DNA of 64,000 nucleotides, taken from positions 28,265,268 to 28,329,267 of the forward strand of contig NC_133237.1 of NCBI RefSeq assembly GCF_040436345.1. The letters run 5' to 3'. The first letter of the stretch is position 1; each line of letters starts with the position of its first letter. This DNA comes from Pagrus major (taxonomy: Eukaryota; Chordata; Actinopteri; Spariformes; Sparidae). The position numbers and the translations under genes were made by a program. The notes beneath the pieces are model-generated. The model searched no databases, was not told the DNA's origin, and saw nothing but the letters and a program-made list of their open reading frames with translations. Below, piece by piece: positions 2,212 through 64,000 of the stretch.

Positions 2212-2244
2212 GGCTGAGTGTCGGCTGGTCGTCGGCTCTGAGCG

Positions 2245-4556: not shown

Positions 4557-4557
4557 G

Positions 4558-4603: not shown

Positions 4604-4856
4604 GTGAGACGTATTTCCAACTGTGAATAACAAAAGACAGTGAGCGAAGCCTCGTTCATCAGGACAGAACGACACCGGCAGCAGACAAACACAAGACAAA
4701 GAACCAGGACAGGATCTGAGAAGAATCGTGTTCACTGGGTTTACTTCAGGAAAAATCCTTTCTTAGGAGATTTTTGTGAGATTTAAAGGTGATTCTGCAG
4801 CAGATGGTTCTGATGGGTTCTGACGGGCTCTGACTGTTGAACCAGTCACACAACTG

Positions 4857-5153: not shown

Positions 5154-5331
5154 TCACCACATGTGTCACGCCCTCTGTCAGCAGTTTGTATATGTGTAAT
5201 ATCTACGTTGGTCACAGAGGTAGAAATGTAGTTTCACAATAACGGCTTTAAAATTGTAGATAGTTTTTACTGTTCTTCTCTGTTGTCCTGCGTCACGTGC
5301 TTGTAGTGAACTGTTTATCTGTAGAACCAGA

Positions 5332-5425
5332 CTGTTCAGGACCAGACTGTTCAGAACCAGACTGTTCAGGACCAGACGGTTCAGGACCAGACTGTTCAGG
5401 ACCAGACGGTTCAGGACCAGACTGT
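5332..5425. repeat. 15-bp minisatellite
   Basis: About six copies of a 15-bp unit (GTTCAGGACCAGACT, with G/A and T/G variants). Confidence 0.9.
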
Positions 5426-6469: not shown

Positions 6470-7060
6470 ACAGTTCATCCAAACAGTAAAGTCCAGTCAT
6501 CATCTCCTCCCTCCATGCTGATGAAAGTCAGGTGAAGTTCGTACTCCACAAAACATTTCTTGAGCAAAGTCTCCAGAAGCTCTGAGATCCCAAACTGATT
6601 TCAAAAGATGTTATTTAAACCCTCGACATGCGGCCGAGCTCGAGCATGCTAACACTGTTAGCTCAGCACACAGTGAAGATTTCAGGGTGTAAATATGGTC
6701 TCCTCAGATCAGTTTGTGATCTCGGGGCTTCCCCTTCTCAGGGAGACATCTGATGGTTTTTTTGGTGAAGTCTCGTAGTCCACAGAACATTTCTGGAGCT
6801 TCACAGTAAAACAGAGTTGCAGCGTTCTGCTGAACAGCTGAAGCAGCTGGAGATGATTTAAACATCAGATGTCTCCATGCAGCTCGTCTGCTGTGATCAC
6901 AGAGATCACAACCTGATCTGAGGAGACCATGTTTAACCCTTTATTAACATGAAGTCTTCTCTGGAGATGCTCAGATAAAACTGTTCACGTTCACCTCGTC
7001 TGAAGTGGGTGGATGAGCTCCACTGCATGTCGGGGGTGTAAATAACGAGCTGTATGGAGC
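6470..7060. mobile_element. Probable foldback/MITE-like element
   Basis: Two arms are inverted copies. The left arm 6693-6757 (GGTCTCCTCAGATCAG then GAGACATCTGATG) is matched in reverse complement by the right arm 6861-6932 (CATCAGATGTCTCC then CTGATCTGAGGAGACC). The arms are about 100 bp apart. The outer ends are not resolved; the left edge near TTAAAGGAACAGTTCATCC at about 6464 is a guess. No coding capacity. Foldback structure is seen; transposon origin is inferred. Confidence 0.5.
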
Positions 7061-7258
7061 CACTTCATGTTTTCATTGCTTTAGCTTTACGTCTCTTTAG
7101 CTTCCCGTGAATTTTTCTTGGAAATGTATAAAAACACCAGAGTTAATTTCTTTCCTCTGATTCTGTTTAATGACCGTTATGCACCAAAACATCAAGACAA
7201 ATTCTTTGTATGTGAAAAGCTACATGGCAATAAACTAATTTACATTTCTTATTCAATT

Positions 7259-7274
7259 AATAATGATAGTAATA

Positions 7275-7305
<31 letters not shown>

Positions 7306-7315
7306 TAATAATAAC
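7259..7315. repeat. AAT/GAT microsatellite
   Basis: Run of AAT and GATAAT trinucleotides just downstream of the polyadenylation site of the second keratin. Confidence 0.9.
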
Positions 7316-7374
7316 AGTATTTTCACCAGAATAAAATAAACACACACACACAGACGTGTTTCAGTTCATCAGAT

Positions 7375-7380
7375 TTTATT
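7375..7380 (-). other. Polyadenylation signal of second keratin
   Basis: AATAAA on the minus strand, 59 bp beyond the TAG stop, giving a very short 3' UTR. Confidence 0.65.
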
Positions 7381-7438
7381 GGTGTTGTTCTGAGAACGGT
7401 TGACAGCGTGTTGACAGATGTTAGTTGTCTCACTGAGT

Positions 7439-10400
7439 CTAACTGGTCTCAGTGTCCTCTCCCTCGATGATCTCTTTGGTGATGATCAGCACTTTACTGG
7501 TTGTGGATGAGGAAGGCCTGCAGGAAAACACACAAACCGTCTGTCAGCTTTCATTACGCTCATAAAGAAGCTAACAAAGTTTCTTACAGTGTTTGTCAAG
7601 CAGCACCCTGTGAGTCATTCAAATGAGTGTTTCATGAATTATTGACGCTCAAACACACGCACACGTTTCTATATTTAAACTCTGTTTCCTATTATACTTT
7701 TAATAATTCCCAGTCTGGACTGGTCCACTCACATGAACTCTCCGTCCATCAGCCTTCTGTACTCGGCGATCTCCATCTCCAGCCTGGTCTTGGTGTCCAG
7801 CAGCATCTGGTACTCTTGGCTCTGACGCTCCAGGTCGAGTCTCAGCTGAGACAGCTGGTCCTCCAGCATGGACACCTGCCTCTGGTAACCTGCTAGCATG
7901 CTAGCATAGCGGCTCTGTGTGTCGGCGAGGGTTCCTTCCAGAGATGCTTTCTGAAGACGAGAAGGAACAGTGTGAGGAGGTTTACAGACTGTTGATTCAC
8001 ATGAAAACAGATTAAGACATGTTTTAAACCCACCATGCTGAGCTGTGCCTGGAGTTCAATCTCTAGACTCTGCAGCGAGCGTTTGACCTCTGTGACCTCG
8101 GAGCGTGACAGCTGAAGAGTCTCTGTGCTTGAAGCAACCTCCTTGTTGAGCGCTTCAGACTACAAAACAACAAAGAAACAAGAAAATGTCCGTTTGTTTT
8201 AAATCAACACATATGCTGATGACACTCTGCTGTTCCTCACTTTTACTTCCAACGCTGGACTGTTTTTATTGCTCGCTGTACTTGAATTAAAAAAAATACA
8301 ACTTTCTAGACAAAATTGTAGAAGAAATTATTTGACGTAGTGAGTCACAACTCTGGTAAATCATGATTTTGACTTGAAAAGTCAAACATTATACGTATTT
8401 TTTATTCTTTTTCATTGTCTTGTGTAACAGGGTAAAGAATCTCAGTCTGCACTTCCACTAAAAGCCACTAGATTCTGCAAGAAAACCCCATGATTGTATT
8501 GAAGTGAATGGGGAAACACACAACTTTTCTCTGCAAAGACAAGTCAGATGAATGTAGTGGAAGTCAATCAAACTTCTTGTGTTTCTCGGTTATGATTTAG
8601 AAGATTATTGCGTTATTATAAAGACATTGAGGGGATTGTGTCACTCACCTTGGACTGGAACCAGGACTCCAGTTCTTTGCGGTTCTTGTTGGCAACGGTC
8701 TCGTAGTGTTCTCTGATTCCAGCCATGACGGCGGACAGGTCCTGCTGAGGAGCGGCGTCCACCTCCACGTTCACCTGACCTCCCATCTGGGACCTCAGAG
8801 CCAGCAGGTCCTGCAGGAAAACATTTCAGATGAGAAGAGAAATTTGTCAATAAATACGATGACAAGTCATTTTTTTCTTTTTCTCAAGAAATTTTGAGTT
8901 GAATTCGAGTGGTTTACAGACAGTCCAGTCTGAATTTTTGGGACTTTATGTAAACTTAATGAGTAATCAAATCAAAAAGTAATGGATTAACTGTCAACGT
9001 GAAGCTCCTCAGGAAGAGGACGAGGGCCACTGTGAAAAATGTATTTGAGTTTTGACTTTTTATTTATTTGTTTGTATTCGAGAAAGTCAGAACTCAAATC
9101 CATTCTTCACAGTCGCCCTCGTCATCTTCTGTCGATCAAATTCAAGACACTGAAGACATTCAGCACCTTGATGTTGACCGGACTGTCTGCACGCTGTGAC
9201 TCTGATTTACCAACACTTGATTGAAAAGCTGCCAAACCAAGATATTTTTTTGGTGTTTCAACCAAATGAAAGTCACTTAAGTTGATTTCTGGATTGTTTT
9301 TCTCTTAAATAAATGTAAAGATTCCCCAACTTCTTCAATAAACTACAGCTAATAAATATGGACAACGAATGTCATTGATTGAAACATTTTAGAATTAAAT
9401 AAATTTAACCAAAGGTAGTTTGCACTTTGGTGCCCACCTCCTCGTGGTTCCTCTTGAGGCAGATGAGTTCCTCCCTCAGAGATTCGATCTGCATCTCCAG
9501 GTCAGATCTGTTCAGAGTCAGCTCGTCCAGGACCCTCTTCAGCCCGGCGATGTCGGCCTCCACCGACTGACGCATGGCCAGCTCGTTCTCGTACCTGCAC
9601 ACGGCGTCAGGGGCGATCAAAGTGAGTTGATTTTTTTTTTCCTTTTCATAAATTCTGTTTGCATGTGTGACATTTATCAGTATAGTTTGACCCATGTTGA
9701 GCTTCATGTGAACGTTCAGTGTTGGTTTACTCACTTGACCTTGAAGTCGTCAGCAGCCAGCTTGGCGTTATCGATTGCCAGGTAGAGAGAGCCGTTTGTA
9801 CGGGTGGCAAATTGGATCTGAAACGCAACAGAAGTTCAGATTTAGGCTGGATGTGTTTTAGTTTCTAAATGTACTGAGACAAAAAGACACATTTAAAATG
9901 TTAAAGTAAGACTTGAAGCAGCAGACACACGGGCGTGGCTGCACGTTTTGGATTTATCCTGAGTGAGTGTAGAAAGGGTTAACAGAGCTCCACGAGGCAG
10001 CTGCACGACTTATGCAAAACTATTCAAATATAAGTCAAACTTCGCCTCTTTGTTTCACGGTCTTCTGTTCTTTCACATCATGCAAATGGAGCGTGTGTGT
10101 CCTCTGTGTGTTCAGGGTGTGGCTGCACCTGTATCACTCTGCAGGAAGCAGCCAATCACGTCTCTCTGCCTCGCTGCCTGTACACCTGAGTGCAGCCGTG
10201 ACAGTATTTTAATTTCCAAACATAAAGGACGCTCTGTCTTCTCACTGTCTTCATTTTCAGGCAGCATTCTTGTCTTTATGTTGTCACCTGATCTCACACC
10301 TGTCCTCTCTCTTTTGTCTCTCTGACCTCATCACAGACAGAACCGTCATACAGAATCAGAACCTGGACTCACCTGCTCCTGCATGTCGCTGATGACAACC

Positions 10401-10768
10401 TTGAATGCGGCGCAGTCGTGGCCCTCAGGTTGGGTCTTCTTCTCCAGGAACTGCCTGATCTTCAGCTCCAGCTCGCTGTTGGCCGCCTCCAGCTTGCGCA
10501 CCTTCTCCAGGTAGGCAGCCAGACGGTCGTTCAGGTTCTGCATGGCTGCTTTCTTGCTGCCGGAGATGTCGTTGGTGTTGTCCACGGCGTCGGCCAGGTT
10601 GAAGCCAGCGCCGCCGGCAGAGAACCCTGCACCGGCTGAGGAGAAGCTTCTGGGAGCGCTCACGCTGGAGATGCGGACCCCAGAGCCTCCGGCGCCTGCA
10701 TACATGCTGGGGGCCCTCATGCTGCCAAGACGGCTTCCAGTGGAAAAGGTAGAGCGAGAGTAGGACAT
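7439..10768 (-). CDS. Type I keratin, complete (406 aa)
   Basis: Seven coding exons: 10373-10768, 9735-9817, 9438-9594, 8649-8810, 8034-8159, 7733-7950, 7439-7517. They total 1221 nt in one uninterrupted frame with GT-AG borders throughout. The head (residues 1 to about 72) is Ser/Gly/Ala-rich. The rod opens with [19 protein letters not shown] and closes with [15 protein letters not shown]. The tail is short (about 27 aa) and ends [12 protein letters not shown], like the compact tails of K13/K15/K17-type fish keratins. Expected role: acidic partner of a type II keratin in the epithelial cytoskeleton. The start is supported by a TATA box 63 bp upstream of the ATG. It lies in tandem with, and in the same orientation as, its neighbours. 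The exact orthologue cannot be named from sequence alone. Confidence 0.95.
9012..9133. repeat. Imperfect 120-bp palindrome in keratin intron
   Basis: The left arm from 9015 (GACGAGGGCCACTGTGAA then ATTTGAGTT) is matched by an inverted right arm ending near 9128 (AACTCAAAT then TTCACAGTCGCCCTCGTC). Arms are about 37 bp with few mismatches and a loop of about 45 bp. It lies in intron 3 of the second keratin. It may be a small MITE remnant. Confidence 0.75.
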
Positions 10769-10830
10769 GGTGGAGGAGTCTGCCTGCTCTGGATGGAGAG
10801 GAGAGAATGAAGCAGAGGTCCGACCCAGCT

Positions 10831-10840
10831 CCTTTTATGC
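10831..10840 (-). promoter_or_regulatory. TATA box of second keratin
   Basis: GCATAAAAGG on the minus strand, near edge 63 bp before the ATG. This is the same sequence and spacing as in the first keratin, and it is followed by the same AG. Confidence 0.7.
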
Positions 10841-11208
10841 TGGATGAAAGTGAGGGAGGGGTTGAGGGTCTGGGCCTCGCTGCAAGCCTCGGGCGAGGAC
10901 ATGTGACCAACTGACGAATCACAGCAGGAATGTAAAATCTACGCCTGTTGCACAATGACGTAACATCTAAACCCTCTCTGTCTATTTGTTTTGCTATCAG
11001 AAAATGTCTCACAGGTGACTCAATCATCCTGTTTGTTCAGGTGAGTCTGCTCCTCTGTGATCAGATCGACTGTTCATCAATCAGCTTCAGATTTGGGCTC
11101 ATTTTAAATAAAAAGACCCCGACCTTCCTCCTCACACCCACCTGGATTCCTCTGCATGCTCCAACCTGCAGTTGTTTTTGAGTTGTGAGTGTTATTATGC
11201 TGGTCCAC

Positions 11209-11255
11209 ACACACACACACACACACACGCACACACACACACAGACACACACACA

Positions 11256-11294
<39 letters not shown>

Positions 11295-11393
11295 ACACAC
11301 AGACACACACACAGACACACACACAGACACACACACACACACGCACACACACACACACACAGACACCCACACACACACACACACACACACACT
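11209..11393. repeat. (CA)n microsatellite with CAGA/CGCA variants
   Basis: About 185 bp of CA dinucleotides with interspersed CAGACA and CGCA units. Open frames through it are spurious. Confidence 0.95.
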
Positions 11394-14300
11394 CCCCTGT
11401 CTTCTTTTATTGTGCAAGCAAACAGTGAAATCCTTTGTAGCAGCTCTCCAGTCGGCTCTGTTTGCTGTCTCAGAGCTGGTTTGGTCACAAATGTTTGGTG
11501 GCAAAGGAGGAAAAAACGTATTTACAACAATAACATGAACGAGAGGTGGAAGCACATAAATCATAACATGAACACATTAGTTTTGTTGGTTCTTAGAGAA
11601 CAGTAGTCGGATCCTTTGGGATGGGTTAAACAGATGAGGTGTTCATGAGCTTCAGAGGTGGATTTTGTTGTGACTGTACACAGAAAAATATAACAACACA
11701 TGACTGTGTGAGATTATAAATATCAGACATCTACAAGTTATTTACTGTATGATGAGACACTGTCATGATGAAACATGTGAAGGACAAATGTTGGAATAAA
11801 AGTGTAAATGTGATTGTACGCTGCCGCGTCAGATTTCTCTTCAGTGTTACACCTCATTCACATTTTCCTCCAACGTCACGCTCAGGCAACGCTGAGATAA
11901 TTTAATGCTGCCGTGTTCCAGGCTGTAAATCATATAAATGTACATAATCTGACAAATTGTTACAATTATACAGGCAAGTCGGACGTACTTTAAGATAAAA
12001 CATATTTGATAACTTGATTTCATCCTGTGTGTTTCACTTCCAGCGTTAGACGAACGTCTCCAAGATGTTTCACATTTTGTAATGGTGTTACGTTAAAACA
12101 GTAACGTTAGCTAGTATGTGTTGAATGCTAATGTTAGCTGTTATCAAACCTGTTGTTTTACCTTGAAATATGGTCCAGTGTCTGTCCAGATTAAACGATC
12201 TGTTGTCTTAAAGTTGCTAATCAATCAGTAAACAGTGAGTGTGATGTCAGAGGAAAATGGCCGCCATGTGAATGCAGTCTATCCGAGGACGTTACATTAA
12301 ACCTGGACACAGTGTTGGAGGCGTTTCAAAGAAAACTCAACTTCCCTGACTCAGATCTTGTGTGTTGTGCGGCCCACAGAATGGGCTTACTTGAAAGGTA
12401 TAAAATAATTTAACGGTGCAGCTCTTCTAGACTATCCAAATGTTATTTGACTGAAATGTATCCACCATTTTACAGACGCGTCTTTCACAATGTTAGCTTC
12501 TGGGAAAAAGTCTTTTTGGGCCGCAGTGCATCAGTTGATGATGTAATTACACAGTTTGGCAACTATGAAAGTTGGCTTCAAAGCCTGGAGCTCTTCACGG
12601 GGGGTTGGGTCTATCTATCCATGGAAGCTCAAACCAGGAACAACAGACCCAAACACACAGTACAACTGAGTACTTTAACATGTGTCCACATACTTTTGTC
12701 CACAAAGCAAACCTGACTTTATCTGTTTTTGAAATGAGCAGGACTGAATCATGTCCCAGGGCTCTTCTGAGGGACAACTTGGCCTCTTAAACACATTTTT
12801 GAGCCAGGCTTAACCTCAGCCCAGGGCAATATGATCCACACTGCACTTCTGCTAGCCCGGGGTTAACTATCTGTTGGAACGCGTGACTAATTATTGTATT
12901 TCAGCAGCACGCCTCATCACAAAACAGACCGTACAGGTCAACTGTGCAAGCTGCTCGTTACGACACACAGCTACTTAACGTATTTACCTTCAGAGAGTTG
13001 ACTTTTATAAAACTTTATTAGATTTATTTATTTCCAGAGATCACAACTGTTCTTCTGTCAGAAAATAAACTGCTCCACAGTTGACACATGCTTAACACAC
13101 TGTTAGGAAACAGGAGGACATCTTTTTAATACACTGTGGACACTTCCTGTCCTGTTTTGTTTTTTTGTTGTGTGCACTGAAAGCTCTCACTGGCCAGCTG
13201 GGATATCTGTGTTAGCGACTAGTTTGCTACGTTCAACAAGCTCTTTTAGCTTTTTTGTCTAATAATACATAAATTAACAACTCTGTTCAAAGTCGCAGTC
13301 AGATAAAAACAAGAAATGAAGCGTCATGAACATACCTCAGTCTGAAAAGGCTACCCAGCACCACAGTTACTGCACTGTACTGTGGCTGTGTGCTTTGTGC
13401 TAACGTTACAGAGTTAGCTCCTGAACAACAGGCTCAGAGGCTGCGTACCATCAGCAGCTCATCCTGCTTCCTCGTGTCTCAATCACATGTAAAAAAACAC
13501 CGAACATTATCTGAAAGAAATCTACAAACACGGCTGAACTTGAACTCACCACTGTCAAGCTAGCGTGTGAGCTTAGGGACTTGTCTGCCATTCTTATAGG
13601 ACTGGTTTGCTTATAGCTTTAGCCTCACAGACTGACAGTGTTTCTGTGAGCAGCTTCAAACTGGGATGGGCAGCCACATCCCAGGCAAATATTCAGCGGT
13701 GGTTACCGTAGTTACCAAGCTTCCTGTATGTGATGTCGTAATGATGGAGTCGGGTCGGGACCGGCGCTAACTGAAGGAGAGAACTGTGGCTGTGATTTTG
13801 TGCCTAACCCCTCCTTAGTCCCGCTCTGTGCACGGAAAACAGTCGAGCAAGCTTTCTACCAGGATTCACATCCATCAAATGTCCTGTTTCCTGTCACACT
13901 TACATGTGTCAGGTGCTCTGTTCGTCAATATTGAAATAAAAACAAGTTAAGTAGATGGTTAAAGATGTTTCTGGGGGACCTGTTAAAGCAACACTGTGTT
14001 TGTTCTGTTCCCAAAACAAATTCTTTCGGATGTAGCGAGCGGATGAGGGCGTGTGGTCGCCCTCGCCATCAGCTGAGCATCAGCGCCATCACAACAGACA
14101 CATACGTTAGGTTAGGTTGTTTAAAGTTATAGCTTTAGAGAGAGTCGGACATCATCAGCGTGTAGAATATTTCCACATGTTACTCTGTGAACTGAGGATT
14201 TATTTGGACCGAACCAGAGCTGACTGTGGAGACACACCAACACTGTTCTGGTGACTGTGGTCCAGTTTGTGTCCAGTTTGTAGCTGTCACAATATTTCCT

Positions 14301-14900
14301 TTCTTCACGTTTAGTGAGTTTATGTTGTTGACTTGTTAGACTCAGGAGTGAACTGGCTGCTTTTACACTACAGGCTGTCAGACTGTCACCTCTGAGCTAC
14401 AGACTGGTGTTAGCAGCTAGCTGGTTAGCAGCTAGCTGGTTAGCATGCTAACTTCAGTAGTTGTTTCTTCTCTGTTCATCGTGTTAGTTCAGTTTTTTGG
14501 ATGTTTTAAACTACAATGATTGCACACATTATATATTGTATCTTAAAAATCATTTATTTTGTGACTAAGATTGAAACTTAAAGATTGAAAGTATGAATTA
14601 CTTCATGTGAGGCAGCCGGTGTTGCACTGCTTAGCGTTTCTCCAGCTTAACGGCGCCGTAGAGACTTCATCATGTTTCATATTCCATGGAGGAATTTTAT
14701 TTTTGTTTATTTCTGTCTGGTTTTATTTGCTTCATTACCTCCTGATTCAATGATGTAAAGCACTTTTATGAATGAATAAGTCAAAACAAGACTGTTGGAG
14801 AACAATAGTCTGCTGTTGGTATATTCTTACACACTGTAGTGAGATCGCTGAATGAGGCCGATACAGGAAGAGAAACTTCAGTTTGAACAGAAGAGACCAC
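11394..14900. other. Intergenic stretch, no confident gene
   Basis: No keratin-like or other recognisable exon. An 89-codon open frame at 12447-12716 (plus) has no family features I know. On the minus strand, 13549-13590 reads ATGGCAGACAAG and continues 14 codons to a good donor (GTGAGT), but no following exon was found. Around 14398-14450 is a short tandem of TTAGCAGCTAGCTGG. AT-rich and otherwise unremarkable. Confidence 0.4.
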
Positions 14901-14932
14901 AGACGTTTTATTTTGAAGCACCTCAGCAGACT

Positions 14933-14938
14933 TTTATT
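14933..14938 (-). other. Polyadenylation signal of third keratin
   Basis: AATAAA on the minus strand, 48 bp after the stop codon; a second AATAAA lies at 14907-14912. Confidence 0.6.
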
Positions 14939-14985
14939 TGCGTGTTTTTGTGGGTGCGAGCTGTGAGGGCGCCTCCTGCTGGTGC

Positions 14986-17900
14986 TCACAGGGTCTGACT
15001 GATCTCCTCCGTGGAGGAGCTCACCACTTTTCCGTCCACAATCTCCTCTACGATGGTGATGACTTTCTGTTTGGTGGTGGAGGTGATGGTGGAGGAGGAG
15101 GAGGAGGAGGAGATGCTGCAGGAGAGAAACAAACAGATCTTAATTCAACTCACATTAATCATAGATCATATTTCTTCATAAACCTGAGAAGTGATGAATG
15201 TGCAGGACAGTATGTTAAATACATATTATCATTTTATTAGAGATGTCGTACAATAGTTGTGGCTCAACTTTTAGAGGCAAAGTATCATAATTTGATATTT
15301 TCTGCACATATTTTATTGGACATTCAATCATTTTGATCTTCAACTACAAATCTTTTCTAGATTTTACACACTTGCAGTTTTTGACAAAGACTAATATATA
15401 AACAAGATTATTGAAGTCAAAATTGTGAGAAAACAGGCAAAACTCAAACAAATTGTTGTTCCGTTATAGAAATCACTTCTGAGGATAACTTCAGCTTTTT
15501 AACATTATTTGAGCCCACGATCATGAGTCCATTAAACTCTATTATATTTTCAACAGTCCTGCCCCCTTCAGGTTTAATCCTCTCACCTGCCGCCGCCCTC
15601 TCCGTCCAGCAGCCTCCTGTACTCAGCGATCTCCATCTCCAGTCTGGTCTTGATGTCCAGCAGCATCTGGTACTCCTGTGACTGTCTCTCCAGGTCGGCC
15701 CTCAGCTGCTGCAGCTGCTCCTCCATCATGCTCACCTGGTTCTGGTAACCTGACAGCTGCATGGCGTACCGGTTCTGTGTCTCAGCCAGGGTGCCTTCCA
15801 GCGACGCTTTCTGCAGGAGAGAGGAGTCGCAGTTTGTTTATGAGCTCACAAACACAGTGGAGCTAAAAGAGAAGGTGTGGTGTGATGATGGTTCACCATG
15901 CTGAGCTGTGACTGCAGCTCGATCTCCAGGCTCTGCAGCGTCCGCTTGATCTCTGTGATCTCAGATTTGGACGTCTGGAGGGTTTCTGTGCTGACTGCGA
16001 CTTCTTTGTTTAATGCTTCTGACTGTGGAGAAGACAGAAATAACAGCACGTCACATTTACACAGAAACACTCATCAGGTCTTGTTGACGTATCTTCAGTC
16101 TGGACCAAAGTGAGAGAGAGAGTCGTGTTGTGGTTCTTACCTTCGCATTGAACCAGCCCTCCAGTTCTTTTCGGCTTTTGGCGGCGACGCTTTCGTAGTG
16201 CTCCCTGACTTCCTCGATGATCTTTGAGAGGTCTGGTCCCTGAGCGGCGTCCACCTCCACGTTCACCTGTCCGCTCATCTGAGTGCGCATCGCCAGCAGC
16301 TCCTGCAGGAAGACACGTGAGGATTCAGCGCTCGCTTCAACAGAAAAGTTCTACTCAGACGTTTCTTGTGTCTGAGAACCCACTGACCTCCTCGTGGTTC
16401 TTCTTGAGGAAGATCAGCTCCTCCTTCAGGCCCTCGATCTGCATCTCCAGGTCGCTCCGACTCATTGTCAGCTCGTCCAGGACCCTCCTCAGACCGGCGA
16501 TGTCGGCCTCCACAGACTGACGCATGGCCAGCTCGTTCTCGAACCTGCACAGAAGACAACTCGCTCTGTTTCTGTTTTTTACAAAGATACAAGATCCAAC
16601 ACCTTTTTCCAAATTTTCTTTTGGCTCCAGTTGGGATTCAATTCAACCAGTAACTCAGTCACAAAAGCTTCAGGATCTTCTCTCGATTGCTCGCCGTTAG
16701 CAATCTAATTAGCATGGTAGCTAACAGAACAGTTCATTAAAAGCTGTATCAGTATGATGTCTGAGTGTGTCTGAGAGCCTTTATGCTTATTTTCTTGTTC
16801 AGGACTTTTACAACTGATTGATGAATTACTTCACTTACTTGAGCCTGAAGTCGTCGGCAGCCAGCTTGGCGTTGTCGATCATGAGGTAGATGCCACCGTT
16901 GATTCTGGTAGCATCCTGGATCTGTGAGATTAAACAGGAAAGAAAAGCTGTTAGCTTTCATGTTCACTAACAGGACATTTTACAGATTTATCCATCTGAC
17001 ACCGTAACCAACAAAATATATGTGTAACATGCAGATTTATCTTGTTATGTTTTGTATTTTTTCTCAGAGGAGAACGCAGGACGTGATCTACAGATACATG
17101 TTCAGGCAGATTTGAATCATTGATGTTAGAGTTCAAGTGTAATGAAACAAAACTCCTCTTGTCCTTTCAGTTCTGCTCCTCCGCCACTTCCTGCTCAACA
17201 AGCTGAGCAACAATCTGAGAGAAAATATCACCTGTCAGTAAAAAGGTCACACATGAGTCTCGTAGACTTGGCAGTGAATCAGACTTTAATCTGCTTTGGT
17301 ATTTGCAGGATGATTGTGGACTGTTTCCTGGAGCGTACAGACTTCTGTTGCAAAAGTGTGAGACGTGTGAGACGGATGTTATTCCAGCATTACTGGTGAA
17401 ATAATACTGAAGATATCTCAGTGGCTTCAAAGCTGATGCTGAAAGCTACAACTGAGATGGAAGCGTAAGCGTTCATGCTTCCACTTCACCAGTGATGATG
17501 ACAGGTAGAGCAGGTGTGCACACCTTCCCTGGCTGTTAATGGATGCATAATGATTTTGTAGTACTTGTGATTGCGGTGCCTACCTTGCCCTGCAGCTCTG
17601 CGATGGTGACGTAGAAGCCGCTGTAGTCTCTGGCGGAGGGGGAGGTCTTGCTCTCCAGGAACTGCCTGATCTTCAGCTCCAGCTCGGCGTTTGCCGCCTC
17701 CAGCTTGCGCACCTTCTCCAGGTAGGTGGCCAGACGGTCGTTCAGGTTCTGCATGGTGGCCTTCTCGTTGGCAGAGATATCCACGCTGCCGCCACCGCCG
17801 CCGCCGCCGGCTCCACCACCGAAGCCAAATGCAGCACCTCCACCACCACCTGAGCTGCTGTAGCCGAAGCTATAGCCACCTGCACCTCCACCACCACCGC

Positions 17901-18042
17901 CACCGCGACCGAACATGGACATGGAGCCACCAGAGGAGATTTTGACATTGCCGCCTCCAGCTCCACCGTACATGGAAACACCGCTTGAGCGGCCACCACC
18001 ATACCCGACACTAGACATGCTTCTGGAGCTGTAATTCATCAT
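14986..18042 (-). CDS. Type I keratin with glycine-rich head, complete (446 aa)
   Basis: Seven coding exons: 17584-18042, 16839-16921, 16388-16544, 16141-16302, 15897-16022, 15587-15810, 14986-15115. They sum to 1341 nt, one frame, GT-AG borders. The head (about 91 residues) has long Gly runs with Tyr/Phe/Ser ([20 protein letters not shown]), like the flexible glycine loops of epidermal keratins such as K10. The rod starts near residue 92 ([19 protein letters not shown]) and ends at EYRRLLDGE. The tail of about 46 aa has a serine run and the motif [21 protein letters not shown], which is shared with K13/K15-like tails. Two adjacent ATGs (18042 and 18039) could start translation; I give the first. 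Expected to pair with a type II keratin in stratified epithelium. Orthology is not assigned. Confidence 0.95.
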
Positions 18043-18096
18043 TTTGAGTGGTGATGAAGGTAACAGAGGCGGACTGTCTGCTTCAGCTGGAGAGGA

Positions 18097-18132
18097 GAGA
18101 GTGAAGAGCTCAGAGGATGGCTGATTTTATAC
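18097..18132 (-). promoter_or_regulatory. Core promoter of third keratin
   Basis: GTATAAAATC (18123-18132) is 81 bp before the ATG. The 14-bp motif AGCTCTTCACTCTC at 18097-18110 is identical to that of the first keratin and falls at the expected transcription start. Confidence 0.7.
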
Positions 18133-41162: not shown

Positions 41163-44100
41163 TCACTCTGTTCCGGCACTTTTGACCCCAAAGCCTGTGG
41201 ACAGCCACCGCTGGAGGAGAGGAGAGGTGCCTGCAGGGGAGGGAATATTATTTATTATTATAAACTTTAATACAACAATTTTTATTTTCACTGTGAGGGA
41301 AATTGTCCCTGTTGTTTCAGTTAGGAGACGACGTCACTAACAACACTGTTGGCTGTGTCTACTTTATAATGACGTCACAGTCTGATATTTTATTAGTTTG
41401 ATGACAAACTGTCAAACATCATCTGTGTGATTCATGACACAATTCAAACAGGATCAATGCATCATCTGTCTCTCTTCATCAATACCACACAAAGCTTTGA
41501 TCAATAAGGTCCCTGAAGGGAACAGGAAGGGGCGGGGCTTCAGCTCTCTATTGCCTCCTTTTGACACAGTGTCAACACAAAGCAGCTGTTCTCACCTGCA
41601 GCCTGTTGTTGTGGTTGTTGTTGTTGTCTCTGTCTGTCCTGACTTCTCTCCCTCCCCGCTGCTGAGATCGACAGAGCCGCCATCTTACAGACACTGATCC
41701 TCTCCTTGTTGCCTCCGGCTCCGCTGCCGGTGCTCCTGACTGGCCGGTCGCTGCTGCTGATGACCCTCCCCCCAGTACTGTTGGTCCTCCCTGACCCAGA
41801 GGAGCTACTGCTACCCATGCTGACACTCATCTTCCCCCCGGGGCTTGGGGCTCTTTGGCTGCCAATTGCCCCCCCTCCACCTGGTCGTCCTGTACTCCCC
41901 ACACTGCTCCTATGTGCTGAAGCTGAGCTGTAAACAGGCTTCCATTCGCCACTGCCTGTGCTAGCGTATCTCCCAGAGGTGCTAGTCCTGTGGCTCCCAG
42001 ACGAGCCGCTGAGCCTGCCACCACTACCTGAGCTACTTAACCTACCACCACTGCCTACGCTGCTACTACGCCTGACAACACCACCTGAGCTGAGCCGACC
42101 AACACTACTCAGTCTTTGTCCGCCACTCGTGTGGCTGCTTGGTGGACTGATAATTTGGTTACGACTGGTGCCACTGACCCTGTCTGCACTACTGGCACTA
42201 CTCAAGCGTCCAGAACTCCCACCATAAACTCTCCACTCTCCACTCCCTCCACTACTAAACCGCCCTCCCACTGATCCTGGTGGGCTTGTCACTAGCTTTG
42301 CATCTGCTGGGATTTCTTCCCTGCCTGCTTTGGGTAAGTTTTTGCTGCCAGGCCAGCTGCTCATGCGTCCAGAACTCCCGCCATAGACTCTCCACTCTCC
42401 ACTCCCTCCACTCCCTGCACTACCAAATCTCCCTGCTCCTTGTGATCCTGGTGGGCTTGTTGGTAATTTTGCGGCCACTGACGTTATGTCTTCCCTGTCT
42501 GCTTTGGGTAAGTTATTGCTGCCAGGCCAGCTGCTCATACGTCCAGAGCTCCCGCCATAGATTCTCCTGTCTCCACTCCCTCCACTACTAAATCTCCCTC
42601 CTCCTTGTGATCCTGGTGGACTAGTAGGTAGTTTTGCAGCATCTGATGGGATGTCTTTCATGTTTGCTTTGGTTAAGCTATTGCTGCCAGACCAGCTGCT
42701 GATACGTCCAGCACTCCCACCATAGACTCTCCACTCTCCACTCCCTTCACTGCCAAACCTTCCTTTTTCTGGCAGACTTGTTGCAAGGAGCACTGATGGG
42801 CTTTCTTCACTCCTTGTCCGATGTAAGCTGCTTCCACTTCCTCTACTGCCAAATCTCACTGTTTCTTGTGGGTTTGTTGCAGGATTTGGGGTCACTGATG
42901 AGCCTTTTTCTTTTCCTTTGCCGATTAAGCTAGTGCTACCATCCTGGCTGCTCATACGTCCAAGACTGCTGCCATAAACCATCCACTCCACACTTCCTCT
43001 ACTGTTGAATCGCCCTCTTTCTTGTTGGCTTGTTGCTCCTGACAGGCTTTCTTTGCTCCCTGTCTTGGGTAAGCTCGTACTTTTATGTCCCAGAATGCCA
43101 CCATAAACCATCAACTCTCCACTGCTACGTTGGAATGTTCCCTGTACCTCTGCGTTCGCAGAAACTCCTGCCACATTACCACTGACTTTACTTGAGGAAC
43201 TAGCCACCATACCACCATTGCTAGTCATAATACTTCCTGAATTAGTAGCCACACTGCTAATGGTACTTCCTTCTTTGGCAGGGACACTACCAAAGCTAGC
43301 TGATTTAGAAGTCTTGTTCTGGTTTTCCGAAACATACCTGCCTTCTGGACTGCCACCTGGATGCTGGCCAGCCTTGTTATCTGCTGTGCCTCCAAGCTGA
43401 AGGCCGATCCCTTGACCGGTTGATTTAGAATTGTTCGGACCATTTACAGTACCTCTACTTTCTTTATTACCTTCAAATGATCCAAAGCACAAACTGTCCC
43501 CATCTCTCACTGAATTGCTGAGTTTTCCTTTTCTGTCCTGTTCTGGCAAAGCCTGATCTTTTCCAAACGACAGGGACTGGCCTTCCTCTTTTGTCGAGAG
43601 AATGTATTTCTCAACTGGTCTTACATCTGCATTTGCCTCAGTTATACTCAGGCATACTTCTTCATCTTCTTCTTCACCATCTGGACTCAGACACGTGTTA
43701 GCCTCAACTGGACCAAAACATTGTTCTGAGTCATTTGGGCTCAAAAGAGAATCAGGACTTCTAACAAGCTCTTTCAGATCTGTCGTACTCATTAACAACT
43801 CTTTTTCAACGGGGCTCAGACGTTTGTCTGGCTTTGTTGGGCTCGCAGATACATGAACTTCTGTTGGATTTAGCAGCTCTTCAGTGTCCGAAGAACTCAA
43901 AGCCACACTAGAATCTGTTTGACCTGTACACTTTTTTGACTGATTGTCCAACTCAGTAGAGTTGACCTTTACCTTGTTTGTATCATGACAACTATTGACT
44001 ACTTTCCCCTTGTCCACATCTAATTCTACTTTCATTAAACTCTCTGTACTTGCAGTTTTAATCTTAAAGTTGCTGTCTGGGCTGTCAGTGGAAGCACTTG

Positions 44101-47100
44101 CATCGTCGGACCCTGTATCTGCATCTTCTATGACTTTGTCTAATTCGCTATTGGATGCATTGGACAATGCCGAACTCTGATCTAAGCTGGGGACAAGCAA
44201 AGTACTTTCCACTTCTACTACTTCTTTTTCTCCCTTCTTCTCTTGTCTTTCTACTTCCTTGTTATCCATCACAGTCAAGTCACAAGAAACGTTATCCTGA
44301 GCCTCCTCAGACCTAAGAATTCGAGATTCAGAGATGACGGATGCTGTAACCCCAACTTCCCCTCCATTCCCAACTGCTTCTGTTCGAGTCTCCAGACTCA
44401 AAGACACAACCTGTGCAGATTCCTGGTTTTTGGCCTGGATGGAGCCCTCTGTGCAGTTAATTTGAGTTGAAATCACAGTTTCTGTCTCTTTCTTTACCTC
44501 TGCTGCAGTTTGTTTGTTGGGATCACTTATTGCCATATGTGTCATATCTGGTCCTTGCTTTACTTCTGGTTCTGCACAAAGAAGGGTTCTAGTGATCATT
44601 GTTTGAATGTTTGTCTCTGTTTGAGTAGCCTCCAAATCTGCCTCTGTGGAGGTTTCTTCAGATGCAAAGGTTTCTGGTTTTGCCTCAACAGTGGCACACC
44701 TGACAGATTGTGTGTCAGGAACCAATGCAATGGTTCCTTGTGCCATTTTACTCTCAAGGTTGACATTGCTGTCTGGGCTACTGGATGAAGTAGTTGTGAC
44801 GCTGGACCTTGTATCTGCATCCTCTGCGAATGTGTTTTCTTCACTGGAGACAAGCAAAGTACCTCCTACTTCATCTTCTTGCTTCTTTTCTTGTCTTTTT
44901 ACTTCCTCATCCATCAAAGTCAAGTCACCAGAGACCTTATCCTGAGCCTCCTCAGACCTAAGAATTTGAGATTCAGATACAACGGATGCTGTAACCATAA
45001 ATTCCCCTGCATCCCTGACTGCTTCAGTTGGAGACTTCAGACTCAAGGACTCAACCTGTGCAGATTCCTGGTTTTTGGCCTGGATGGAGCCCTCTGTGCA
45101 GTTCATTTGAGTTGAAATCACAGTTTCTGTCTCTTTCTTTACCTCTGCAGCAGTTTGATGGCTGGGATCACTTATTGTCATATGTGTCATATCTGGTCCT
45201 TGCTTTACTTCTGGTTCTGCACAAAGAAGGGTTCTGGTGATCATTGTTTGAATGTTTGTCTCTGTTTGAGTAGCCTCCAAATCTGCCTCCCTGGGGGTTT
45301 CTTTAGATGCAAACGTTTCTGGTTTTGCCTGAACAGGGGCACTCCTGACAGATTCCTTTTCAGGAACCAATGTGATGGTTCCTTCAGCGGTTTTACTCTC
45401 AACATTGTCATTGCTGTGTGGGCTACCAGATGAAGCAGTTGCGATGCTGGACCCACTGGGGGCAAGCAAGGTACCTTCTACTCCTACTACTTCTTCTTCT
45501 CGCTTCTTTTTTTGTCTGTCTACTTCAAGAGCCATATCACCAGAGACCTGAGCCTGAGCCTCCACGAACCTAAGAACTTGAGAGTCAGAGACAACGGATG
45601 CTCTAATAGCAATTTCCCCTGCATCCCCGACTGCATCTGTTGGAGTCTTCAGACTCAAAGACACAACCTCTGCAGGATCCTGGTTCTTAGCCTCAATGGA
45701 GCGCTCTGTGCAAATCATTTCAGCCGACACCACAGTTTTTGTCTCTTTCTTGCTGTGATCAGTTGTGGTTGTATGTGTTAGGGAATGTGATCCTTGCTTT
45801 ACTTCTGGCTCAGCACAAAGAATGGTTCTGGTGATCTCTGTTTGAATGTTTGTCTCTGTTTTATTAGCCTGCAAAACAGCTTCTGGGCTAGTTGGTTTGG
45901 AAGTGAAAGTTTCTGGTTTTGCCTGAACTTCAGCACTCCTGATTGATTGTGTTTCAGGAACCAACTTGGTGGTTCCTTGTGCAGTATTTGTCACCAGTTT
46001 AGAATCTTTGTCAACAACTCTCTGGTCTATACCTTGGCTGATCTGGGTACTAACATTGGATGAATTCCTCAAATCACGATCTTTATCTTCCACTGGGCTA
46101 CTCTGCCTGTTGATTGTCACACTGATGGAGTCTCTTGCGGTCCTTTCAGGAATAGCTCCTGTTCTCTGGTTTTCAGACTTTTGGAATGAGCTGGTCCAAT
46201 TTGGAGTGTTAATCGATGTCACCGGTGTGTTGTTTGGATATTGGCTGTGGACCCTGATTGACTGTACTGTGGTCACTGTTTGTGAAAGTGGGGCACCAAT
46301 AGGTGTTTGTCCGACCGTATAGATGTGGCCTCTAGAGACAGCCTGAACCCCAGTCATTTTGAGACTTCCCCCCTGAACACTGGCTGTTTTGTTCACTGTG
46401 AAGTTTCTCCTCAGGGGAGAGGGGCTTGTTGAAACACAGAAGGATGTGGTGTTAGCCACAGAGTTTGGGTGAAGACTTGAGACCCTGTGAAAAATTATAG
46501 ACAAAAACAATGAGAATGAGAGGAATTTCCTAGAAATCCAAATTAGGACGCTAAAGACCCTGTAACATATAAATATTATGATTGGTAGGTTAACTGTAAC
46601 TGTTGCAGAAGTTAACACATATGTTAGCCTGTTGGAGAGGCTATTCCATTATCATCATCTCATACCCCTTTGGGCTCAGTCCATCCAGCAGCCTCCTGTA
46701 GCCTTGTATCTCAGTCTCCAGTCTGATTGTGATGTCCAGCAGGGTCTGGTTGTCTGCAGCCTGCTGATGTGTAGCCTGCAGCACTGAGTCCAGGTCCCAG
46801 CACAGACTGTCTGCTCTCTGCTGAAGGACCTCCAGCTGCTCGACAAAGGACTCGTTCTGGTCCAGACCAGAGGACTCCAACACCATGTTCTACAGACAGA
46901 CAGGCAGGGACGATGCTGCATGTTAGAGTTGTGTGCCTGGTGGTCCTTTTTCTGCAGATTTATCGTAACAATATCACCCTACTCCCTTAAAAAATGTAGT
47001 GATTTTAAGATTTGTTTCATGAGGAGAAACTTAACAAACTTTGTGAAACTCTGTCTCTGACAGATTCTGAATCATTGTCTCCTTCTTGTAAATTCAGCAT

Positions 47101-50100
47101 TAAATGAAAACAGTAAGTTGTGTGTTTCCTTGTAAAAAGTGTCAGTTTGTGGCAGCATGGCTGCACCAGCCTGTCTGCTTCTGTGTCTAAAGTGCTAAAG
47201 TCTTACCTGCCAACATTTAGCAGCTGTTTGAACACACTGTTTACACTGATTTCACCATTTACACTCAATTTATGAAAGAAGAAACATTTTATTGACGCTA
47301 AACATGTCAAATTTTACAAATACACTAAACAGTAACCAGTACAGGCGACTTCTTTGTCCCCTGACTCCCTTAAAAAATGTGTCAGTTTAGTGAGTTGTTG
47401 AGTTGGAGACACTTTATAAACTGTGTGAAACTCTGTCTCTGACTGATTCTGACTTATTTGTTCCTTCTTGTGAATTCAGCAAATGTTCTACATGAACTTC
47501 TTTCTGTCTTTGAGTAGAAACATGGAGTCTGTTTGTCCCAGTGATGGACGGGTTTATTTGCGGGGGAACTGATATCTGATCACAAGTGGTCACTCAAAAC
47601 AAATGTTAAAGTGTAACTCTCGCCAAAATGCAACCTAGGCTTTTTTTGTGAATGTACCCGAGTCAAACCTTCCTGTAAAAGCATAATTACGATGAAAAAG
47701 CCACTTTTAAGATTTACAGTAGTTTCGTTTTCGGGTCAAAATCGTTTTCAATTACATGTTAGGGGCAGCTGTATGGTAGCATCAAAATCGCTAGAGAACA
47801 TTGTTTGTGTACACAGAGTTTACTAAAAAGAAGGTTTTTAAACAACTCATGTTAGCAGCAGCAGCAGCCGTCCTGCCAGTCGAGATGCGTCGATCCCCGA
47901 GTGTGGGATCGGGGATCGACTCTTCTCGACTGGCAGGACGGTGGCGAGCGGAGCAAGCGCGTGCTAACTTGAGTTGTTGCGGGTGTTCATGTGTAGAGAC
48001 CCTGGTGATGCTACGAGCAAAGTTTCATGTTGTGTCGAGTCTTCTTAGTGTTTTAAAAATAGCGATTTTGATGCTACCATAAAGTTGCCCGTAGCATGCA
48101 ATTAAAAATGATTTTGACCCGAAAACTAAAATACGGTAAATCTTAAAAGTGGCTTTTTCGTCGTAATTATGTTTTTACATGAAGGTTTGACTCGGGTACA
48201 TTCACAAAAAAAGCCTAGGTTGCATTTTGGCGAGAGTTTCACTTTAATGGTGTCTAATCAGGTTCTATGTTTGTGTGTTAACATCCGACATCTATTTTTA
48301 AAGTCCAGTACTTTTATCTCACCAGAGCCTGGAGTTGTCTCAGCTCTTCTTCCAGACCCGCTGCTGTTCTCCTCAGTTCCTCCAGCTCGACCTGGATGAC
48401 CTCTGACTCTGCTGGAGGGTAAAAGGTCACCTCAGGAGAACTCAGCATGGATACCTGAACACAACACACCTGATTAGATGCTGTCTGTACACATTATAAA
48501 CCCCCTCAGACAGAGAACTGTGCTTATAGAATATTTAAAACTGATGCTGTTGATGTTTGTCCACCTGGGTGTTGAACCAACGCTCGCTCTGGTTCTTGTC
48601 AAGCAGCGCCACACTTGTGTGTCTCAGGTCGTCCAGCTGCTGGATCAGGTCTAATGACTCGGTGGGATGCATCTCCATGGTGACGCCTCCTGACATCTGG
48701 GACAGGACAACCTGCATGTCCTGGACAGGTAAACAAAAAACATGACATTGATGTAGTTTGTTCATTTGAATAATCCAGGTGAATGTTTCATTGTTCTACC
48801 TGTTGGTGCTGTATCTGCAGGCCCATCAGTTGTTGTGATTGGTCGTTCAGCAGACTTTGGAGCTCCGGCAGTTTGTGGACCTGCAGCTCCTCCTCCAGCA
48901 GCCTCAGGTCGCTAAGCTCCGCCTCCAGACGGCCACGGCGCTCACGTTCCTTTTCACTCCTGTTCACACAGCAGGGGTTGATGGGAAATGTCTAGCTGTG
49001 CTCTGTATGTGCATGCTGAAGGTGTGTGGATCTACCTGATGTTGAGGTCGAAGACCGTGAGCTCTGCACTGAGTAGCTGAAGCTTCACCTGAGCCTGGGC
49101 CGAGAGACAGTCGGTCATCTGCAAGTAAGAGAAGAGAGAGAGGAACGTTTTTTTAATAGCAACAGTTACGGTACAACAGGTCGGAGGTTATACTGCTACT
49201 ATAGTCGTAGTTGTTGTAGAAGTCAGAGGCGTGGACCAGAGTCATATGTCTGGGACTAGAGTCATGCGTCTGGGACCAGAGTCATATGTCTGGGACTAGA
49301 GTCATACGTCTGGGACTAGAGTCATGCGTCTGGGACTAGAGTCATGCGTCTGGGACTAGAGTCATGCGTCTGGGACTAGAGTTATATGTCTGGGACTAGA
49401 GTAATGCGTCTGGGACCAGAGTCATATGTCTGGGACTAGAGTCATACGTCTGGGACTAGAGTCATGCGTCTGGGACTAGAGTCATGCGTCTGGGACTAGA
49501 GTCATATGTCTGGGACTAGAGTCATGCGTCTGGGACTAGAGTCATATGTCTGGGACTAGAGTCATACGTCTGGGACTAGAGTCATGCGTCTGGGACTAGA
49601 GTTATATGTCTGGGACTAGAGTAATGCGTCTGGGACCAGAGTCATATGTCTGGGACTAGAGTCATACGTCTGGGACTAGAGTCATGCGTCTGGGACCAGA
49701 GTCATATGTCTGGGACTAGAGTAATGCGTCTGGGACCAGAGTCAGATTTGAGTCATGAATCAAAGAAAATTTAGAGCTTGACTTTGACATAAATACCACT
49801 TTAAGTTGGAATGACTCGGCCCGGATTCAACTTTTGGGCAGCTTGTGACTTGTCGATCTTGATTTGGGACTTGGTCTTCACTTTAACTCGACTCAGGACT
49901 TGGTCTTGACTTTGGTCTTGACTCAAGTCTTGTTGGTCTTTGATGGAAACTTGTTGGTCTTGACTCTGAACTTGTTGGACTTGATTTTCAAATGGACGTG
50001 GGAGTTGGTCGTGATTATGAACTTGACTTGGGACTTTTTGTACTCGATTCTGATCTTGACTCAGAATTTTTTTGGACTTTTTTGGGATTTGAAGTTCTTG

Positions 50101-53001
50101 ACTTTAAACTTGTTTTAGGACTTGTTGTTCTTTAATCCGGACTTGCTGCTCTTTGATCGAGACTTGCCAGTCTTGACTTTGAACTTGACTCAGGATTTGT
50201 TAGTTTTGAACTTGGTTTGGTTGTGGTTATTGGTCTTTACTTTTATTTGACTTGGGACATGTTGGTCTTGACTTTTGGACTTAACTCAAGACTTGACAGC
50301 CATGACATAAGACTCGGTTGCGACTTGTCTTTGTCCCCCTCTGGTGGCAGAAACCACAGAAGTACAGTCGCAGCAGAAAAACATCAAACCGTCGTGTACC
50401 TGATGATTTAAAGTCACGTAGCGCTGCAGAGGTTGAGTGAATAAACCGGTTGGTGTTGAACAAAAGAAAACCTTGTATTGTGTTTTAGTTGTTACGTTCC
50501 TGTTTGACCAGAACAGGACAGGAAGTCACCAAAACAAATTAAATGTCACACCACTCTCAGACTTGTTGAATACACTCAGACTTACTTCATGTCCTCGAGG
50601 CAGAAGCTTTTTGTCCGTACAGAGATAACTGGTCGTTAATAAAAACACTCTGTTATTGTCAGAGGATTTGTAGAAGTTCAGATTTAATCTCTGACATTTC
50701 AGATGTGAGTCAGACTCGTCTCAGCCTGTCCGACCTTTAAAGAGACACACGAGAGCCTGACGAGTCGCAACCAGCCTAAAGTTTAACACCATCCCAGAGC
50801 TGAATCTGGACTGTTCAGGCCTTTGTTTGGTCCTGATTATAATCCATGTTCAGCCCCAGGACAAAAGGGGTTTTACTGTGTGTCATGTGCAGACGCTGCT
50901 TTTCTTTATTTATGCTGTTAAAATAACATCCCCAGTGGTGGAGGAAAGATTCAGTTCACTTTCTTACAAATACCACACTGTAAAAATAAAGTATGAACGT
51001 AAACGTACTTCGAGTGTTCAAAGTAAAAGTACCAGTTACTATAAAATGTGACTTTTTTGTCATATGATTTGTTTTAGTATAGATTGTTTGATTGTTTAAA
51101 TGTACTGTGAATCCCATTTTATTTGTTTTATGTATTTATTTGTTTCAGTCTCGTTCTGATTGTATATATTTATGTGTATCTGTAATACAGTGTTGTTGAG
51201 CTGACCTGGTCCTGCAGCAGGGACACTGTCCTCAGGTGTCTGTCCAGCTCTCTCAGCTCTCCGGGACACTTCTTGTCCAGCTCCTCCTGGATCTGACACT
51301 CCAGCTTCTGATTGGCCGCCTCAAGACACTGGACCTGCATCAACCAATCAGATGAGACAAGAAATGAATCAGTTGTGATGATGATGTGTTTGTTGCTATG
51401 ATGATCTTCAGAGCAGACTGAACCTCTGGTCAGACGACGGGTTTGTTTCGTCTTTTTAAACTTCCTTCACTACTTTATTTCCCATGATGCATCATTAAAA
51501 TGATAATTTATTGATTTTGCACCTGGAGGATAAACAACACAGTGCTTATTTCAGTCCATGAAAAACTCCATTGAAAAATTGGCAACTTTTATGTTCTCTT
51601 AAATATAAAAGTTTGTGTAGAACTCATCTGAGACATCTTCTTTATTTTAACTTTCTTAATAATTATGTATCATTTACAAAACTGCCTGTAAAACAAGAAC
51701 TACCATTATACTCAGTCAAGGCAAAACTCCATTAGGAATTTTGTTGTTTTTATATTTTCCTGCTCTTAAAACTATAATTAATCATCACTTATGAATTTCA
51801 GATTAATTGTGGTCTTCATTTGCTGTTGTTGGAACCATCTGGTAGAAATCATGACACAAACACAGTGCCCGCTTCAGCCCATTCAAAACTCCATTTAAAA
51901 ATCTGCATGTTTATGTTCCGCATGATCATTAAAACCTGTTGGTCTTTCACCAATTATGAATTACAAAACACAAAGTATGTTCAGGCAAAGCAAAACTCCA
52001 TTAAGAAATTGGCCTATTTCTGTTTTCCGGCTCTGAGTTCTGTAACTCATGAGTTCAAGTCTAATCTTGGTCTTTATTTACTGTTGTCAGTTATGTGATT
52101 TGTATGTTTTTTGTATGTTTCACCTTTTTCATCAAAGAGTAAAAAGCAGATCTAAAGACAAGAAATCTTAAACACAATACTTGCTTCTGTTCATTCAAAA
52201 CTCCATTTAAAAATCTGCTACTTTTATGTTGTTTTGATGTTTAAAACATTTTGACTCATTACTGACATGTTGATTTAACTTTTGCATCACAACACACAAA
52301 CTATTTCAGGCAACTTCAGGCGAAGCAAAACTCCATTAAGAAATCTGGTATTTTTTAATGTTTTTTCTGCTTTTAAAAATATCTTTAATCTCCACATGTG
52401 GATTTCAGTGTAAGTGTGGCGCTGAGTCCATCAGCTGTGTGAGAAGTAAGGTTTTCATCTCATACATGAAAGAATCAAAAGCAGATGTGAAATCTTAAAA
52501 CAAACACAGGGCTTGTTTCTGACATGCAAAACTCCACTGGAAAATATGCAACTTTTATGTTCTCTTGATCCTAAAAACATACTGACTCTGCACTTCTATG
52601 TCAGTTTAACTTTGGAATTATATGACAAAAACTGAACACAGTCAAAGCAGAAATCTGGCATTTGTATGTTCTCTTGATCTTTAATCATTAATTATCATCT
52701 CTTCAGAGCCTCAGTTTAATTTTGGTGTTTGTTCTGCTGTTGTTGGATCAATCACGACAGTTTTTGTTCCCCCTCATGCGTCTCCTACCTGCTGCAGGTA
52801 CGATGCCAGCCTGCCGTTCAGCTGCTGCAGGGTGGCTTTCTCTCTGGACAAACAGAAGCTCCTGCTGCTGTCCGGAGCAGCAGCAGCAGCAGCAGCAGGA
52901 GCTGCGCTGTAATGGACCGAACCTCCAGATGCATGATGAACACGGTAACCCACAGCTGCCTGGGTCGCTCTGCTGGCACGGAGAACCTGCCACGGTGACA
53001 T
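41163..53001 (-). CDS. Type I keratin-like intermediate filament protein with giant repetitive tail (about 2017 aa)
   Basis: Coding exons: 52789-53001, 51206-51334, 49036-49118, 48800-48959, 48565-48720, 48323-48454, 46666-46889, 41596-46484 and probably 41163-41230; total 6054 nt, phases consistent, GT-AG borders. The rod exons (83, 160, 156, 132 and 224 nt) match the 83/157/162/126/224 pattern of the neighbouring keratin, proving common descent. The head is short (about 52 aa, Ala run). The rod begins at LNGRLASYLQQVQCLEAAN and ends with LETEIQGYRRLLDG near residue 358. The tail (from residue 366) has a Ser/Thr-rich start, three repeats of about 200 aa (TRTLLCAEPEVKQG), an acidic SP-rich part, and about seven Gly/Ser/Arg units (GEWRVYGGSSGRMSS). 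Normal type I keratins are 400-500 aa. The function is unknown. If the last donor is skipped, the protein ends at 41540. The first ATG in the head exon is my chosen start and is unproven. Confidence 0.82.
47606..48247. mobile_element. 640-bp foldback element in intron, TTAA at both ends
   Basis: Near full-length inverted repeat. The left arm starts TTAAAGTGTAACTCTCGCC. The right arm ends GGCGAGAGTTTCACTTTAA. Arms of about 200 bp match through CAAAATGCAACCTAGGC, GATTTACCG/CAGTA and CATCAAAATCGCTA. The centre holds a second perfect-looking stem (GTCCTGCCAGTCGAG with CTCGACTGGCAGGAC). The TTAA at both borders suggests a TTAA-targeting DNA transposon family. No coding capacity. It lies in the intron between two rod exons of the giant-tail gene. 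Confidence 0.8.
49240..49745. repeat. 20-bp minisatellite in intron of giant-tail gene
   Basis: About 25 copies of GTCATGCGTCTGGGACTAGA with ATATGTC, ATACGTC and GGACCAGA variants, in the intron between the 83-nt and 129-nt exons. Confidence 0.95.

Positions 53002-55224: not shown

Positions 55225-64000
<8,776 letters not shown>

Follow-up and report, generated by a model that had tools for sequence, protein, structure and literature searches.

Ordinary keratins are short-tailed, and giant tails are a feature of neural and muscle filament proteins. A gene in the 64,000-nucleotide stretch of the Pagrus major genome analysed here (the window) joins a keratin-like rod to a very long tail, which raises the question of what kind of filament protein it encodes and what such a tail is for. 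The gene, referred to below as GIANT, lies on the minus strand between an ATG at 53001 and a stop codon ending at 41540, has eight exons and appears to be an intact type I keratin gene. The predicted protein of 2013 aa consists of a head, a full filament rod and a tail of 1,647 aa encoded in a single exon.

The exons are as follows. Exon 1 (213 bp, 52789..53001) carries the start codon, a short head and the first half of coil 1A; exon 2 (129 bp, 51206..51334), preceded by an extra intron in coil 1A, encodes the remainder of coil 1A, L1 and the start of coil 1B; exon 3 (83 bp, 49036..49118) corresponds to type I exon 2; exon 4 (160 bp, 48800..48959), in coil 1B, exceeds type I exon 3 (157 bp) by one residue and has a proline in KLPEL; exon 5 (156 bp, 48565..48720) corresponds to type I exon 4 (162 bp); exon 6 (132 bp, 48323..48454), which corresponds to type I exon 5 (126 bp), has coil-2 prolines in SSPEVTFYPP; exon 7 (224 bp, 46666..46889), the counterpart of type I exon 6 (usually 218-224 bp), closes coil 2B with the conserved RLETEIQGYRRLLDG motif; and exon 8 (4945 bp including the stop codon, 41540..46484) encodes the tail. 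AATAAA polyadenylation-like signals are found at 41394, 41286 and 41256. A strong donor at 41596 (CAG/GTGAGA) and an acceptor-like site at 41512 mark a possible alternative 3' end (41540..41596), and splicing between them could swap the last ~18 tail residues; with exons 7 and 8 joined, the tail is near 1,650 aa whichever 3' end is used. The window also contains long minisatellite arrays with shortest periods of 10-20 bp (22347-23812, 27750-28699, 37778-38597, 40657-41148 and 49233-49744), the last of them inside intron 2 of GIANT and that at 40657-41148 just below its 3' end.

The exon sizes and phases had been likened to those of type I keratins, and this holds for the modelled type I genes of the same genome: the rod exons of GIANT measure 83/160/156/132/224 bp, compared with 83/157/162/126/218-224 bp (the last ~221 bp) for type I exons 2-6, and its introns occupy the type I positions, with one additional intron. 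Exon 4 has 165 bp in L051, L052 and L060, exceptions to the usual 162 bp. The borders of exon 4 in L049 were set by hand (159 bp), away from AG and GT, so that a few residues of this row may be wrong and the 55 reference donors and acceptors include one that is not real; exon 6 of L050 could be 215 or 230 bp long, and 230 bp was used. In two neighbouring type I keratins, KA and KB, exon 6 is apparently split by a further intron in coil 2B. The intron between rod and tail has the same place and phase (phase 2, just past the LLDG motif) in GIANT and in the local type I keratins, so GIANT carries its tail exon where ordinary keratins have theirs. The in-phase junction of the rod to a 4.9-kb exon at 46666/46484, proposed in the preliminary description, is confirmed in its sizes and coordinates and keeps the reading frame. 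A short tail, typical of type I keratins but not defining for them, is absent from GIANT; sole keratins, for example, have tails of 16 and 28 aa (PMC2174949, in excerpt).

The rod itself is complete, with the helix start and end motifs of vertebrate filament proteins that had been recognized earlier. Residues 54-361 match PF00038 (model positions 2-309 of 313, E=5e-41), and the closest solved structures are those of K10 and K14. KRT222 lacks coil 1A, which in GIANT is present and conserved. Conservation is confined to the ends: coil 1A and the end of 2B are 63% and 62% identical to the type I majority, and the five segments between them 23-28%, the lowest among 12 rods. Head and rod together are 29-31% identical to three neighbouring keratins, which share 64-71% with each other. 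Prolines are found at one coil-1B column and three coil-2 columns that lack this residue in all 11 other type I rods; L050, likewise a diverged type I gene, has two coil prolines at other columns, so prolines alone are no mark of a new function. L050 (C24:21.964-21.967 Mb) lies near reverse-strand filament exons, possibly as a K8/K18-like pair. On chromosome 6 (C6:24573978-24581067), two apparently type II sets of filament exons, 5.8 kb apart and with near-equal match scores, are likely a recent tandem duplication. The GIANT rod pattern fits a subunit that can still dock into filaments and would no longer need to build them alone.

The same pattern can be read differently. Filensin and phakinin are the beaded-filament proteins of the lens, and GIANT might likewise be a specialised scaffold outside the keratin network, with the rod merely an attachment device. 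The degenerate, proline-containing middle of the rod and its very long branch are consistent with this, and so are published trees that place phakinin with keratins and a report that zebrafish lacks BFSP1 (PMC8733776, in part). However, the helix start and end motifs are conserved, the rod length is nearly unchanged and no evidence links GIANT to the lens, so that we consider a scaffold of this kind unlikely.

A second question is whether rod and tail belong to one transcript. The exon-7 donor (GGG/GTATGA) is weak: it scores below all 55 reference donors (introns 1-5; one reference is not genuine) and matches the donor consensus at five of nine places, whereas the intron-6 donors of 11 other type I genes match at 6-8. 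GC3 also falls at the junction: it is 0.69 for the rod and 0.34-0.56 for the tail, the values for eight other type I genes being 0.73-0.82. Both features could indicate that the rod gene reads into intron 7, where the frame ends after a few further residues with YEMMIME and a stop codon, and is an ordinary short-tailed keratin, the tail being transcribed separately. Four observations make this quite improbable: intron 7 matches type I intron 6 in place and phase; exon 7 is followed after just 181 nt by the in-frame acceptor at 46484; no ATG occurs in the tail frame until 42 codons below this acceptor; and the codon signal begins at the acceptor, with a score of -0.353 just before it and 0.18 just past it (intergenic 95th percentile, 0.069). 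The latter score nevertheless falls a little short of the 5th percentile for windows of the tail (0.189). An alternative in-frame acceptor at 46628 has a slightly better score but was dismissed, since it would leave an intron of 37 nt, which is too short. Joining of exons 7 and 8 is therefore the preferred model, and a short isoform produced by retention of intron 7 is possible. The drop in GC3 fits a foreign or separately evolving tail, which may be under different codon pressure or come from elsewhere. It does not suggest a bulk protein.

The tail frame is open for 1702 aa from stop to stop, while 300 first-order Markov simulations of the same DNA reached at most 244 aa and the other five frames of the region contain 40-129 stops. 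The repetitive tail of ~1650 residues that had been described is thus present, and its segments follow in the order S/T-rich, acidic A repeats, acidic spacer, basic B repeats, Gly/Ser (GS) stretch and short Q-rich end. The A repeats (about aa 532-1175; 44057..45988, minus strand) form three units of ~200 aa with a net charge of -56 over aa 532-1172, and the acidic spacer has a net charge of -13. The B region (aa 1481-1800; 42182..43141, minus strand), rich in Gly, Ser and aromatic residues, comprises about six related units with the sequence VYGGSSGRMSS and has a net charge of +15; it includes an array detected by TRF (42207-42751, period 165, 3.3 copies). The GS stretch contributes +17, so that B and GS together reach +32. 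The Pfam search of the tail frame gave a single match far below the cut-off (E=0.063). In the search of the own genome the tail had a single match, as did its C-terminal 62 aa; the tail is single-copy.

The A repeats were compared by explicit repeat alignment. All 14 pairwise indels are multiples of three (the pairs are not independent) and dN/dS is 0.60-0.85, with P values of 0.03-0.12 for the deficit of amino-acid changes and 0.02-0.12 for the lack of stops; given these modest P values, purifying selection is weak at best. AlphaFold2 applied to one A repeat (three sequences) produced no confident fold (pLDDT 36), a result in which disorder and shortage of data are not distinguishable. The motif VYGGxxGR[IML]S occurs in four copies in the B repeats and in none of 5000 shuffles of aa 1481-1960. 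It resembles an ordinary type I keratin head motif, VYGGAGGxxxR[IV]S, which is present in five of seven other type I heads tested and missing from the short head of GIANT. This resemblance is a lead, because the pattern was written after the sequence was seen and its copies are related.

The ancestry of the gene is best approached through the additional intron, which, like the doubts about the two ends of the tail exon, was not part of the preliminary description. It is a phase-0 intron in coil 1A (RLASYLQQ/VQCLEAAN). The site is uninterrupted in 13 of 14 other type I genes examined (KA-KF, L049-L052, L058-L060), a sample that covers the clusters partly and is not the genome total. The remaining gene, C1a (C1:27.017-27.024 Mb; L062, L057, L063), is a type I keratin of chromosome 1 split at the identical place and phase, which is unusual for type I; its exon 2 likewise measures 129 bp. 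The intron could have been gained twice. Unlike GIANT, C1a has no long frame after the rod: no open frame exceeds 52 aa in ~2.5 kb past exon 6, and no similarity to the GIANT tail was found in its 3' region (best E 4.7). A short piece past the C1a rod presumably represents an ordinary keratin tail, which it resembles.

In a 15-row tree of rods of this genome, GIANT grouped with seven type I keratins of C1 and C23 (97/98) on a branch of 2.79, its position within the group not being fixed. The tree constrained to GIANT plus C1a had an lnL 0.44 above that of the free tree. In AU tests, GIANT with type III/IV (p=0.118) and with L049 (p=0.133) was not rejected, and the value for L050 was 0.051. An 11-row tree lacking C1a set GIANT beside the local keratins (76/49); the p values there were 0.043 for type III/IV, 0.045 for L049, 0.048 for L050 and 0.105 for L051, the last not rejected. 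Both trees were built without KA and KB (exon 6 apparently interrupted), KD (nearly identical to KC), L053 (exon 1 missing), L054 (judged by eye to resemble a lamin) and L061 (judged by eye to be type II). The rod phylogeny that had been called for places GIANT with type I keratins and, in the 15-row tree, leaves type III/IV unrejected; the rod belongs, though not firmly, among type I keratins, with a very long branch. Derivation from an adjacent keratin is disfavoured despite the 11-row placement, as the grouping with KC/KE/KF had an AU p value of 0.036 in the 15-row tree. The nearest structural relative that we found is C1a, not any adjacent keratin.

A relation to hagfish-type thread keratins had also been considered. 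Gamma thread keratins are type I-like fish filament proteins, and we know of no giant tail among them. A gamma thread keratin is known in zebrafish as zgc:136930 (PMC6778804, in part), and gamma thread genes are present in teleosts and have been described as the sister group of type I keratins (PMC10005773, in excerpt). Given this position, and since the long branch makes the placement of GIANT unsure, the gene might be related to gamma thread keratins rather than to epidermal type I keratins. Against this, GIANT falls within the type I group at 97/98, in a tree without named thread keratins, shares a rare intron with the type I keratin C1a and is located beside a type I cluster. A thread keratin link is disfavoured and appears very unlikely.

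The preliminary description had placed the gene inside or beside a type I cluster. It is beside one: GIANT adjoins a group of six further type I keratin genes, of which three lie in the window and the rest at most 41 kb to the left of the window, one of the latter on the opposite strand. The genes in the window (5..18126, minus strand) lie at 5-2277 (cut by the window edge), 7733-10834 and 15587-18126, their upper ends being the ends of open frames. To the left of the window, KA (L012-L013) is ~37-41 kb and KB (L011) ~20-24 kb away. KC (L009, plus strand, ~7.8 to 5.7 kb to the left) and KD (5-2277, minus strand) are near-identical in opposite orientation and seem to represent a recent inverted duplication spanning the left window edge. 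On the other side of GIANT is an MBTD1-like gene (56472..64000, plus strand), which has an FCS zinc finger as well as two MBT exons. In Lates calcarifer, krt13, mbtd1 and utp18 are on a single unitig (PMC10413685), so that the genomic setting of GIANT is probably conserved; GIANT itself is not mentioned in section 7 of that report.

A decaying gene or an assembly artefact would account for the fast-evolving rod and the one weak splice site, but the 2013 codons run without frameshift or stop and all seven introns have GT-AG borders, which makes such an origin very improbable. Type VI membership is hardly conceivable: one huge exon with a long repetitive tail recalls tanabin, whose long repetitive tail is in one 4848-bp exon, but the rods of nestin, synemin and tanabin are encoded in three exons (PMC2075511, in part), whereas seven exons at type I positions encode that of GIANT, which rules membership out and bears out the earlier view that its architecture stands apart from these proteins.

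The explanation we favour, at somewhat less than an even chance, is that GIANT is a derived type I keratin whose tail exon has grown to 4.9 kb and which acts as a low-stoichiometry, projecting side-arm or cross-linking subunit. The exon behind the conserved rod-tail intron, encoding a short tail in ordinary keratins, would have expanded to this size. The conserved rod ends would let GIANT join filaments at low stoichiometry, presumably paired, as other type I keratins are, with a type II keratin; with a degenerate, proline-interrupted middle of the rod, ordinary self-supporting GIANT filaments are unlikely. The tail, predicted to be disordered, would project as a side arm, first the acidic A spacer and then the basic, sticky B and GS end, and could space keratin filaments, cross-bridge them or anchor them to partners.

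Known systems offer parts of this arrangement. Neighbouring teleost type I keratins share with GIANT the rod domain, the exon positions and phases and the rod-tail intron, and C1a additionally the coil-1A intron and the 129-bp exon 2. The tails of neurofilament M and H are long, charged and projecting and have been proposed to space or link filaments; their genes have type IV structure. In K1/K10-type glycine loops, Gly/Ser/aromatic repeats are thought to be adhesive; such tails resemble the GIANT tail in composition but have about a tenth of its length and no acidic spacer. Like GIANT, the proteins nestin, transitin, tanabin and synemin combine a rod with a very long, fast-evolving tail that is often repetitive (PMC2075511, in excerpt), although type VI proteins are of other origin. 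By analogy, GIANT would play the side-arm role of nestin, synemin and the neurofilament tails, having come to it from a keratin. A more specific version is possible, if doubtful: the keratin family of ray-finned fish may have independently invented a nestin- or synemin-like giant side-arm protein, in which a C1a-related type I keratin became a dedicated epithelial cross-linker, lost the assembly constraints on the middle of its rod and acquired a charge-segmented arm of 1,650 residues made partly from head-like motif repeats.

In the open-access literature searched, subscription papers being mostly outside its scope, we found no paper that describes a giant-tail keratin, and GIANT may well be carried in fish genome databases as an unnamed predicted gene. 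As far as we found, the giant-tail architecture of nerve and muscle filament proteins is new for keratins. A giant-tail keratin that evolved separately would provide an independent test of the purpose of long filament tails, and GIANT, with the rod ends kept and the middle released, would be a case that separates copolymerisation from self-assembly. It also suggests that fish epithelia use a structural component absent from the open-access literature that we searched.
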